Shown here: positions 6,396 to 9,601 of the stretch, piece after piece
Layout of the letters: the number at the start of each line of letters is the position of its first letter
Numbering within the stretch: position 1 is the stretch's first letter
Made by a program: the position numbers and the translations under genes
The notes under the pieces: generated by a model
Databases searched by the model: none
The model's input: the letters and a program-made list of their open reading frames with translations, nothing else
What the model was told of the DNA's origin: nothing
NCBI GenBank assembly: GCA_002712945.1
Contig: PAVA01000039.1
Location: forward strand, 1 to 33,718
Length of the DNA: 33,718 nucleotides
Source: Citromicrobium sp.
Lineage (GTDB): Bacteria; Pseudomonadota; Alphaproteobacteria; Sphingomonadales; Sphingomonadaceae
Direction: 5' to 3'

Positions 6396-6827
6396 TCATT
6401 GATGGCGCAGGCTCCAGATCGGGGTGCGGGCGTCGGCGGCGGACTGGTACACCTGCGGGAAGCGGTTCAGCGCCGCCTCGACATCTTTCGGGTCGAGCGG
6501 TGCATCGGGATCGAACGCATCGAAGCCGCAGCGGCGCATGTAGGCGATCTGGTCGACGAGCACGTCACCGACCGCCCGCAGCTCACCTGTAAAGCCTGCT
6601 TCGCGCAGGATGCGGGCCGCGGAATAGCCGCGCCCGTCGGTAAAGGCGGGGAAGGCGATGTCGATCCGGCGCAGCCGCTCGAGATGCGGCAGAAGCTCGC
6701 GCGTGTCCTCGCCCGGCTCGATCCGCACGGCGACTGCATTGGTCTGCCCTGCGAAGGCTTCGAGCGTCACCGCAGGTTCCATGCAGGCTTCGTCTTCGCG
6801 CAGGCGCAGGGGGACTTGCTCAGCCAT
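6396..6827 (-). CDS. DUF934 family protein, sulfite reduction accessory
   Basis: A 143-residue protein of the DUF934 family, found next to sulfite reductase in many proteobacteria and usually described as an oxidoreductase-like partner of sulfite reduction. The family block is visible: FTDGRGYSAARILRE, then GELRAVGDVLVDQ and RRCGFDAFD. Start ATG 6827 lies within the end of cysI (8-nt overlap), so translation is coupled; an in-frame extension upstream into cysI is rejected. It ends one base before the cysH start codon. Its biochemical role is not established; the context argues for electron transfer to or maturation of CysI. Confidence 0.85.
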   Translation of the reverse strand: MAEQVPLRLREDEACMEPAVTLEAFAGQTNAVAVRIEPGEDTRELLPHLERLRRIDIAFPAFTDGRGYSAARILREAGFTGELRAVGDVLVDQIAYMRRCGFDAFDPDAPLDPKDVEAALNRFPQVYQSAADARTPIWSLRHQ

Positions 6828-8496
6828 AGAGCGCCTCCTTGAAGGGGGCCATGCCGATCCGGCGATAGGTGTCGAGGAAGCGCTCGCCCTCGGTGCGTTC
6901 GCGCAGGTAGACATCGGCGGCGGTCTCGACCGCGTCGACGATACCGTGCTCGTCGAAGCCGGGGCCGGTGATCTTGGCGAGGCTGGTGTCTTCCGCCTCC
7001 GATCCGCCGAGCAGCAGTTGGTAATTCTCGGTGCCTTTCCGGTCCACGCCGAGAATGCCGATGTGGCCCGCATGGTGGTGCCCGCAGGCATTGATGCAGC
7101 CGGAAATCTTGAGCTTCAGCTCGCCCAGCGCGGCTTCCTTGCCATTGGCCGCAAAACGCTCCGAAATGCGCTGCGCGATGGGGATCGAGCGGGCGTTGGC
7201 GAGGCTGCAATAGTCGAGGCCGGGGCACGCGATCATGTCGCCCATCAGGTCCGCATTTGGCGTGCCCATGCCCGCCTCGTTCAGCGCTTGCCACAGCGCG
7301 TAGAGATCCGCCTTGCGCACATGCGGCAGGACGACGTTCTGCGTGTGCATGATACGCAGCTCGTCGAAGGAATAGCGCTCCGCCAGATCGGCCAGCACGC
7401 GCATCTGCGCATCGGTCGCATCGCCGGGAATCCCGCCGACGGGCTTCAGGCTGACGATGGCGGAGACGTAATGGGGGTGCTGGTGTGCATGCGTGTTGTG
7501 CTTGATCCAAAGATCAAACCCGTCACCCCGGACTTGATCAGGGGTCCCGCTTTCTTCTTGCCCCGCGGCCTCAGCGGGATTCCCGCCTTCGCGGGAATGA
7601 CGAAGGGGGGCGGGCAGCTCGAAATAGCCCTTGATCCGCGCCAGCTCGGCCAGCGGCGGCTCGACACCCTGATCGAGCAGGTGGGCGAACTCTTCCTCCA
7701 CCTGGCGCGTGTATTCCTCCGCGCCGAGTTCGTGGACGAGGATCTTGATCCGCGCCTTGTACTTGTTGTCGCGCCGTCCGTAGCGGTTGTAGACGCGCAG
7801 ACACGCCTCCGAATAGGTCACCAGCTGGTCCAGCGGTACGAAATCGCGGATCAGCGGCGCGATCATCGGGGTGCGCCCCATGCCGCCGCCGACATAGAAC
7901 TGTGCACCCAGCTCCCCGTCCCGCTCGACGATCCGGATGCCGATATCGTGCAGGCGCATCGCCGCGCGATCCTGCTCGCTCGCGATCACGCAGATCTTGA
8001 ACTTGCGCGGGAGGTAGCTGAATTCGGGGTGGAAGCTGGACCATTGGCGCAGCAATTCCGCATAGGGGCGCGGGTCGGCCACTTCGTCGGCGGCAGCACC
8101 CGCGAAATGGTCCGAACTGATGTTGCGGATGCAGTTGCCGCTGGTCTGGATCGCGTGCATCTCGACCTTGGCGAGATCGGCGAGGATGTCGCCCGCGTCC
8201 TCCAGCTTGATCCAGTTGTACTGGATGTTCTGGCGAGTGGTGAAGTGGCCGTAACCACGATCGTACTTCTCGGCGATGTCGGCCAGCGTGCGCATCTGGC
8301 CGCCGTTGAGCGTGCCGTAGGGGATGGCGACGCGCAGCATGTAGGCGTGCAGCTGCAGGTAGAGCCCGTTCATCAGCCGCAGCGGCTTGAACTGGTCCTC
8401 GGTCAGCTTGCCCGCCAGTCGCCGCTCGCACTGGTCGCGAAATTCGGCGACGCGCGCATCGACCATCGCCTGGTCGTATTGGTCGTAGGCGTACAT
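6820..8496 (-). CDS. cysI: nitrite/sulfite reductase, hemoprotein subunit, with in-frame repeat insertion
   Basis: A 558-residue siroheme/4Fe-4S enzyme reducing sulfite to sulfide (ferredoxin- or DUF934-linked type). The two tandem reductase halves are recognisable. The cofactor cysteines are Cys424-x5-Cys430 (CPGLDYC) and Cys467-x3-Cys471 (CINAC), followed by the GHHHAGHIGILGVDRKG segment. The N-terminal half carries GYGHFTTRQNIQYNW (81-95) and the TSGNCIRNI segment (118-126). Unusually, residues 299-326 (RHSREGGNPAEA through TPDQVRGDG) are encoded by an 82-bp palindromic repeat (7521-7602) in the linker between the halves. The frame resumes directly into IKHNTHAHQHPHYVSAIVSLKP, which looks like normal family sequence. 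All cofactor ligands are intact, so the enzyme is probably active. Start and stop overlap neighbours (TGATG with DUF2849; 8 nt with DUF934). Confidence 0.93.
   Translation of the reverse strand: MYAYDQYDQAMVDARVAEFRDQCERRLAGKLTEDQFKPLRLMNGLYLQLHAYMLRVAIPYGTLNGGQMRTLADIAEKYDRGYGHFTTRQNIQYNWIKLEDAGDILADLAKVEMHAIQTSGNCIRNISSDHFAGAAADEVADPRPYAELLRQWSSFHPEFSYLPRKFKICVIASEQDRAAMRLHDIGIRIVERDGELGAQFYVGGGMGRTPMIAPLIRDFVPLDQLVTYSEACLRVYNRYGRRDNKYKARIKILVHELGAEEYTRQVEEEFAHLLDQGVEPPLAELARIKGYFELPAPLRHSREGGNPAEAAGQEESGTPDQVRGDGFDLWIKHNTHAHQHPHYVSAIVSLKPVGGIPGDATDAQMRVLADLAERYSFDELRIMHTQNVVLPHVRKADLYALWQALNEAGMGTPNADLMGDMIACPGLDYCSLANARSIPIAQRISERFAANGKEAALGELKLKISGCINACGHHHAGHIGILGVDRKGTENYQLLLGGSEAEDTSLAKITGPGFDEHGIVDAVETAADVYLRERTEGERFLDTYRRIGMAPFKEALYG
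7521..7602. repeat. 82-bp palindromic repeat element inside cysI
   Basis: The outer ends are inverted: CGTCACCCC at 7521 and GGGAATGACG ending at 7602 (its complement reads CGTCATTCCC). An inner perfect hairpin ATTCCCGC-CTTC-GCGGGAAT spans 7579-7598, and a smaller CCCGC-GGCCTCA-GCGGG stem precedes it. The left part contains GGACTTGATCAGGGGTCC. From memory, elements of this form (CGTCATTCCCGCGAAGGCGGGAAT...CCCCGGACTTGATC) are scattered intergenically in many Sphingomonadales and other proteobacteria. No other copy of this type was seen in the window. Confidence 0.85.
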
Positions 8497-8795: not shown

Positions 8796-9601
8796 CGTTG
8801 CGAGTCCCAGCGCAAGCTGGGACCTCCTCCTATGGAAGCGCCAGCCTGCACGAGATCCCAGCTTTCGCTGGGACTCGGGAAGGTTTCGCGCGCTGTGACC
8901 TCGCCGATCACGATCAGCGCCGGGGAAGTGACGCTTTCGTGTTCGACGAGGTCGGGCAGGCCGGCAAGCAGCCCGCGAAGGACGCGCATGCTGGGGCGCG
9001 CGCCATTCTCTATCACCGCGACGGGCATGTCCGGGGAAAGGCCGTCCGCCATCAGCTTGTCGGCTATATCTCCGGCGGTCTTCACGCCCATGTAGATCAC
9101 CAGCGTACGGCCCTTGCCGGCGAGGCCGGACCAGTCCTGGTCGCTGAGCCCCTTGCACTGGCCTGCCACGAAGCTGACGATGCTGGAGGCATCGCGGTGA
9201 GTAAGTGCGATCTGCGCCGCCGCCGCTGCGCCATTGGCGGCGCTTATGCCGGGCACGATCTCGACCGGCACACCCGCAGCGCGAGCAGCTTCGGCTTCCT
9301 CGCCGCCGCGTCCGAAGATCAGCGGATCGCCGCCCTTGAGGCGGATCACATCACGGCCCGCCAGCGCCTCGCGCACCAGCAGCGCGCAGATATCTTCCTG
9401 CGGCAGCGTGTGCTTGGAACGGCGCTTGGCGACGGAGATCAGCGTCGCGTCGGTGCGTGCCAGATCGAGGATTGCGGGATCGACCAGACCGTCGTGGACG
9501 ATCAGTTGCGCCCCCTCGATCAGCCGCGCGGCGCGCAGCGTCAGCAGGTCTGGATCGCCGGGGCCCGCGCCCACAAGGTAGATGGTGCCAGTATGTGCCA
9601 T
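8792..9601 (-). CDS. cobA: uroporphyrinogen-III C-methyltransferase with repeat-encoded tail
   Basis: SUMT adds two methyl groups from SAM to uroporphyrinogen III to give precorrin-2, the siroheme precursor needed by CysI in the same operon. Family motifs are VGAGPGDPDLLT near the N-terminus, RLKGGDPLIFGRGGEE, VPVEIVPGISAANGAAA, and the late THRDASSIVSFVAG, YMGVKTAG and PALIVIGEV strands. No CysG-type dehydrogenase/chelatase domain is fused. ATG 9601 is preferred because the conserved GTIYLVGAGPGDP follows it closely; GTG 9628 or ATG 9613 are possible. After GEVTARETF the last ~25 residues (PSESWDLVQAGASIGGG... to the stop) are encoded by a palindromic repeat and do not resemble the family. 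The stop overlaps the DUF2849 start as ATGA. Confidence 0.92.
   Translation of the reverse strand: MAHTGTIYLVGAGPGDPDLLTLRAARLIEGAQLIVHDGLVDPAILDLARTDATLISVAKRRSKHTLPQEDICALLVREALAGRDVIRLKGGDPLIFGRGGEEAEAARAAGVPVEIVPGISAANGAAAAAQIALTHRDASSIVSFVAGQCKGLSDQDWSGLAGKGRTLVIYMGVKTAGDIADKLMADGLSPDMPVAVIENGARPSMRVLRGLLAGLPDLVEHESVTSPALIVIGEVTARETFPSPSESWDLVQAGASIGGGPSLRWDSQR
8801..8877. repeat. ~77-bp palindromic repeat forming the 3' end of cobA
   Basis: Outer perfect 11-bp inverted repeat: CGAGTCCCAGC at 8801-8811 and its complement at 8867-8877. Two inner hairpins face each other: GTCCCAGC-GCAA-GCTGGGAC (8804-8823) and TCCCAGC-TTTC-GCTGGGA (8856-8873), joined by a ~32-nt spacer. The hairpin-spacer-hairpin layout is like a REP doublet (BIME/REPIN). 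It differs in sequence from the element in cysI but has the same general architecture and size. Confidence 0.8.

Follow-up and report, generated by a model that had tools for sequence, protein, structure and literature searches.

The window analysed here, the whole 33,718-nucleotide stretch from Citromicrobium sp., carries a cysI gene whose product contains NIR_SIR and NIR_SIR_ferr domains, with DUF2849 and tetrapyrrole methylase genes upstream and a DUF934 gene and a PAPS-reductase gene downstream (Table 1). By CysI, the host is near Alteriqipengyuania/Citromicrobium. A palindromic element lies in frame within this gene, as a sequence-only reading had proposed, and would be translated as CysI residues 299-326 (7519-7602), which read RHSREGGNPAEAAGQEESGTPDQVRGDG. 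That reading was also right that the frame is kept and that cysteines 424, 430, 467 and 471 are intact; all four are invariant in both of our alignments (43 and 63 rows). Apart from the loop that holds the element, cysI is under strong constraint, with dN/dS of 0.06-0.14 in correctly aligned pairs.

Table 1 Features of the cysI region in the window.
Feature	Position	Strand	Description
cysI	6820..8496	-	nitrite/sulfite reductase (sulfite reductase hemoprotein), 558 aa
palindromic element, 82 bp	7521..7602	-	two opposed CGTC-REP-like units, CGTC tags outermost
first unit hairpin	7579..7598	-	perfect 8-bp stem ATTCCCGC/GCGGGAAT, 4-nt loop
second unit hairpin	7525..7545	-	8-bp stem, one mismatch, 5-nt loop
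spacer joining units	7546..7578	-	6-bp stem CCCGCT (7546-7551) / AGCGGG (7573-7578)
second palindromic repeat pair	8801..8877	-	C-terminal codons of upstream TP_methylase (cobA-like) gene

The element begins with CGTC at 7521 and ends with GACG at 7602. Of its two hairpins, only one is the perfect inner hairpin that the earlier reading described, the other containing a mismatch. Excerpts of Di Nocera et al. 2013 (PMC3733652) describe CGTC REPs as repeats with a CGTC tag, stems of 8-9 bp, loops of 4-5 nt and mostly a CCA tail, which occur predominantly as HH dimers, lack an associated transposase gene and include Rickettsia RPE-4 and RPE-6. The window element resembles them in its terminal CGTC tags, 8-bp stems, 4- and 5-nt loops and paired units; its unpaired tail is CCC in both units, whereas most CGTC REPs in those excerpts fit CCA. 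Its type is likewise a dispersed multicopy family, with matches in 29 of 31 related genomes. These features make the window element a pair of CGTC REPs. RNA folding of the element was unexceptional (z = -1.28, with 22 of 200 shuffles equally good), so it is repetition that shows the element to be real: used as a query, it matched 10 of 12 related genomes, and parts of it matched six of 72,556 plasmid records, all six from sphingomonads.

The loop segment in the window is 48 nt longer than that of a native relative and the element measures 82 nt, so about 34 native nucleotides are missing from the window gene. The element therefore took the place of native loop and is not a simple addition; the earlier description of it as inserted holds for its presence in frame and fails insofar as it implied mere addition. 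Clean insertion was rejected more generally, since all 17 element-native pairs compared lacked 23-40 nt of native loop, the element lengths and native partners in this comparison having been picked by us. At the second repeat pair, in the cobA-like gene, the arms (8801-8826 and 8852-8877) are 92% complementary. This pair is missing from all nine aligned relatives, and its site spans 92 nt in the window and 41 nt in seven of eight measured relatives, the eighth being clipped by the search pattern. The stop codon of the cobA-like gene still overlaps the next start codon despite the repeat.

The cysI element falls in the linker between the two reductase halves, as had been proposed: among solved nitrite reductases, the top match ends at residue 271 and restarts at 351. 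The predicted CysI structure resembles nitrite/sulfite reductases, with 1zj8 the best match, and has a mean pLDDT of 78.2 when built from the wider alignment; residues 303-323 form its longest run below 50. This low model confidence fits a flexible linker and tolerance of the repeat as a flexible loop, which is presumably exposed at the surface.

Among the best 120 of 8000 scored homologues, proteins named Citromicrobium with 90-92% identity have a short, different loop of native type in place of residues 299-326, and the same repeat-derived loop is present in Alteriqipengyuania sp. NZ-12B and four other proteins. Where examined, neither outcome that would have told against the sequence-only reading was seen: the relatives named Citromicrobium lack residues 299-326, and close relatives carry dispersed copies of the repeat. 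Within the genus of genome G018, cysI is found in 10 of 10 genomes, with the element in G018 and G321, a native loop in seven and an outlier in G384, whose CysI is 60% identical.

Across related Erythrobacteraceae, this one CysI loop is occupied by five repeat types, of which T1-T4 are CGTC-related and T5 belongs to an unrelated family. The element is in frame in every cysI case read, and palindromic ends are visible in the DNA of the cysI elements. Sorting 235 distinct sequences by loop motif (the window plus 120 homologues and 140 loci, after identical sequences were collapsed) gave 8 T1, 12 T2, 12 T3, 18 T4, 4 T5, 119 native and 62 other loops; in a later revision six rows became native and locus L119 became T5, and many of the 62 'other' loops come from distant species and were left unparsed by the pattern. 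Similarity rose above that of shuffled sequences for T1-T2, T1-T3, T1-T4, T2-T3 and T2-T4. T3-T4 was the only CGTC pair for which it did not, and T5 was no more similar than shuffled sequence to any of T1-T4. A single ancestral insert therefore cannot account for all types. Sister lineages lack the element. In the genus of G001, where cysI is present in 111 of 114 genomes, 18 of the 111 are carriers (one T2, four T3, five T4 and eight T5), and the remaining 93 were called native by length, three of these being incomplete genes; of six slightly long 'native' loops that were read, five were native and one was odd (L137).

In cysI the elements are read in a polar frame, with GRAVY values of -0.5 to -1.7 across nine elements; for T1-T3, the alternative VIPAKAG frame would give a less polar peptide (-0.2 to 0.2). 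The cysI frame was open in 25 of 37 delimited CGTC copies, compared with seven for each of the other two frames; for T5, all three frames were mostly open (27-34 of 35 copies). The loop is probably translated. In L107 (positions 2197-2268, genome G258), the peptide of the CysI loop looks like that of a T5 element in decay, although T5 gave no match in this genome; the loop may be an old insert that has been retained as protein.

To survey dispersal, one set of 31 genomes was searched with the DNA of each cysI element (matches at E 0.01), with the element of relative L081 standing for T1 and carriers' own cysI copies counted in. Matches were found in 29 genomes for T1, 23 for T2, 25 for T3, 24 for T4 and 16 for T5. 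Match numbers are not copy numbers, as palindromes match both strands, and they are lower bounds where only part of the candidates was scored; counting the copy in cysI itself, G018 had 22 T1-type matches and G321 had 21. After two matches were subtracted from carriers for that copy, carriers were richer in their own family for T3 (P = 0.0016), T4 (P = 0.0004) and T5 (P = 0.0004, one-sided Mann-Whitney, 31 genomes), and also within 17 genomes of one genus (P = 0.039, 0.0025 and 0.008, respectively). The enrichment was weak for T1 (P = 0.03, two carriers), and T2 carriers showed no link to the abundance of their own family (P = 0.83, Mann-Whitney, 31 genomes). In 13 of 20 carriers the resident family was the most abundant of the five, a number reached in none of 20,000 label shuffles among carriers; this test and the abundance tests, except for the one-genus subset, ignore kinship, and some carriers are near kin. 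The outward flanks of repeat copies (L241-L340) are pyrimidine-rich and G-poor in both T5 and the CGTC families (73 and 88 ends), with an information content of at most 0.58 bits at any position.

Trees built without the loop show how often its content has changed. The protein tree implied 31 label changes (196 rows, 'other' left out) and the DNA tree 21 (78 rows); on the latter, element and native loops interleave, with 12 native/element changes when 'other' is counted as native. The changes forced on well-supported branches alone were 10 for native, six for T5, five for T3, three for T4 and two each for T1 and T2. The body of the window gene clusters with two native rows, its nearest neighbours being L083 and L084 (98, starred); its loop is like that of L081/L082, and other T1 genes lie elsewhere in the tree; hence T1 was lost, gained twice or transferred. 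These trees cannot separate insertion from loop recombination. The two T5 lineages share frame and orientation, which may point to a single origin of T5.

In all 11 usable same-type pairs, which are few and overlapping, the element had less synonymous change than the remainder of the gene: 0.089 versus 0.460 in the T1 pair, 0.074-0.247 versus 0.260-0.459 in six T4 pairs, 0.131-0.321 versus 0.410-0.681 in three T3 pairs and 0.307 versus 0.455 in the T5 pair. The values for the rest of the gene leave out pairs mixing L035, L106, L009 or L023 with other loci, which were apparently misaligned. Native loops showed no consistent lowering (0.252-0.974 versus 0.379-0.581). Youth of the elements, gene conversion or constraint at the DNA level would each explain the low values. 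Taken with the flanks ELPxxLR ... HxHPDY common to T1, T2 and T4, they suggest loop transfer, conversion or DNA-level constraint.

We then turned to repeats outside cysI, using 100 copies, chosen by us among the matches listed, from seven genomes. By a codon model, eight of the 100 are in frame within genes: three in the glycyl-tRNA synthetase beta gene, two in a DnaE2-type polymerase gene and one each in genes for a class I tRNA synthetase, a B12-dependent methionine synthase and a pyridine-nucleotide oxidoreductase. The model's true- and false-frame scores overlap (5% quantile -0.07 and 95% quantile 0.19, respectively), and the 17 of 17 cysI controls that it called correctly were its own training genes. 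Two of the glyS copies come from unrelated families (T5 in G437 and CGTC in G167) and occupy one site, as do both dnaE2 copies.

The best 120 homologues of each protein were surveyed at its shared site with element-bearing queries, which biases the counts towards such loops. For GlyS beta, where classes were set by loose motifs, we found 80 CGTC-type, 17 CTCTCCC-type, two with both, five LPGTGRGT-type, three PEPVEG-type, two T5-like, three short, four other and four unparsed loops; the repeats are mostly read in the VIPAKAG-type frame. The DnaE2 loops comprised 67 CGTC-like, 16 CTCTCCC-type, one with both, 14 VSRRDAE-type, eight RHAELVSAS-type, 10 other and four unparsed. The LPGTGRGT, VSRRDAE and RHAELVSAS types are peptide classes, known from peptide alone. 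At the DNA level, among the best 30 of 105 glyS-bearing genomes in the genus of G001 (again with an element-bearing query), 26 loops were parsed, of which three were short and 23 had palindromic repeats of, by our reading, six kinds. Two of these glyS repeat families were checked and are dispersed, one in seven of 16 genomes and the other in 15, counts that take in the query genome. Use of one site by unrelated families is seen in DNA sequence for CysI and GlyS and in peptide sequence for DnaE2. Two GlyS beta loops (P0149 and P0155) seem to stack two or three repeat-derived peptides of different types, and L291 (G504) has an extra CGTC element in glyS away from the common site.

We favor, with a probability of about 0.65, a reading in which insertion of repeats is widespread, few of the intragenic copies last, and a few permissive loops are recolonised or have their repeats exchanged. 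A non-autonomous palindromic repeat, the CGTC-REP pair, would have landed in cysI and now be translated, as one of several repeat families copied around Erythrobacteraceae genomes. Intragenic copies would survive where they encode an uninterrupted peptide within a flexible linker, and others would mostly not persist; the loop would stay permissive and be colonised again, or have its repeat swapped, lineage after lineage, each such event losing 20-40 nt of the previous loop. We infer that insertion was the primary event, that other intragenic copies were selected against and that the retained ones are neutral, and loop recombination between species probably contributes. A stronger version, in which the CysI, GlyS beta and DnaE2 loops would be true exchange cassettes whose resident repeat is replaced by the genome's active family, through a mechanism that would remove the old insert and keep the frame, strikes us as unlikely.

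The loops might instead stem from a few old insertions, spread and swapped afterwards by short-tract recombination in cysI and by conversion between like repeats. The window gene, with its body among native rows nearest L083 and L084 and its loop like that of L081/L082, is what such shuffling would give, and flank residues that track loop haplotypes, the relatedness of the T1-T4 sequences and the low synonymous change of the element in 11 of 11 usable pairs all agree with it. Shuffling creates no types, however, and T5 together with the CGTC types requires at least two insertions. Loop type also tracks the abundance of the resident repeat for T3, T4 and T5, even inside one genus, and the T5 loop of Aurantiacibacter xanthus (L023) has flanks like those of its native sister L028. 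We hold this account possible, at clearly worse than even odds. A preference of the insertion machinery for the DNA of the loop, which would explain recurrence without appeal to protein tolerance, would fit the pyrimidine-rich, G-poor outward flanks and the junction CCCCCCTTC of several cysI elements, but flank information is weak, families with different ends share the site, and a CGTC tag occurs at the site in only three of 59 native loops. On that last count we rejected the tag as a target requirement, and we consider target preference in general improbable.

Selection for a useful inserted peptide, for example a partner-binding or regulatory loop, seems more doubtful still. The T5-like loop of L107 in a genome without a T5 match speaks for it; against it, close relatives have very different peptides, 93 of the 111 genomes of one genus have a native-length loop, and dN/dS in the element ranged from 0.07 to 1.05 at very few sites in usable pairs. 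A chance palindrome or an assembly or annotation artefact, to which the unexceptional folding energy might point, can be practically dismissed, since the same loop was recovered from several sources and the repeats are dispersed in relatives.

In-frame palindromic repeats in genes are already known, and several described systems resemble this one. The excerpts of PMC3733652 report that CGTC REPs are common in alpha-proteobacteria, with intragenic copies in DnaE2 and Erythrobacter tRNA synthetases among others, and that recB of two Xanthomonas carries different REPs at about the same site. Those excerpts describe no case in which unrelated repeat families share a single site across a bacterial family, and the terms 'sulfite' and 'cysI' do not occur in the main text. 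The parallel with Rickettsia palindromic elements drawn by the sequence-only reading is apt: PMC3733652, in the same excerpts, equates intragenic CGTC repeats of R. conorii with RPE-4/RPE-6, and the window element shares with Rickettsia palindromic elements its in-frame presence within a conserved gene. Such elements occur in Rickettsia and Wolbachia and have an RPE consensus. In passages of PMC3767692, RPE-4, RPE-6 and RPE-7 are in-frame repeats in core genes, different RPE groups lie near one locus in orthologues, and the RPE motif ATGAC lies within the CGTCAT tag when this is read on the opposite strand; those passages leave open whether such a locus is a hotspot of different origins or one diverged insertion. 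Unlike that case, the CysI site has sequences without detectable common origin. REPIN/RAYT repeats, as portrayed in part of PMC3116915, are also short, often paired, dispersed palindromes, but they have a RAYT transposase and a GTAG tag (the latter from the PMC3733652 excerpts), which is absent from the window element with its CGTC ends. The MITE-type in-frame fusions covered in part of the Delihas review (PMC2229807) are likewise small repeats translated as protein parts, and differ in being about 100-200 bp long and of other sequence. Our literature search recognised no work on repeats in a sulfite reductase and none on one protein site used by unrelated repeats. Within the literature searched, then, what is new is that repeat families of unrelated origin use a single protein site across a bacterial family; replacement of native loop, and occupation of this loop in other family members by different and even unrelated repeats, went beyond the sequence-only reading.

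The Rickettsia passages of PMC3767692 left open whether such a locus is a hotspot or a single insertion that diverged; the loops described here tell the two apart, since the same site also holds an unrelated repeat. The loops occur in free-living, partly cultured bacteria and offer a natural replicated experiment on selfish DNA becoming protein, with one site, many peptides and native sister genes. If they were true exchange cassettes, they would be a standing source of new protein segments.
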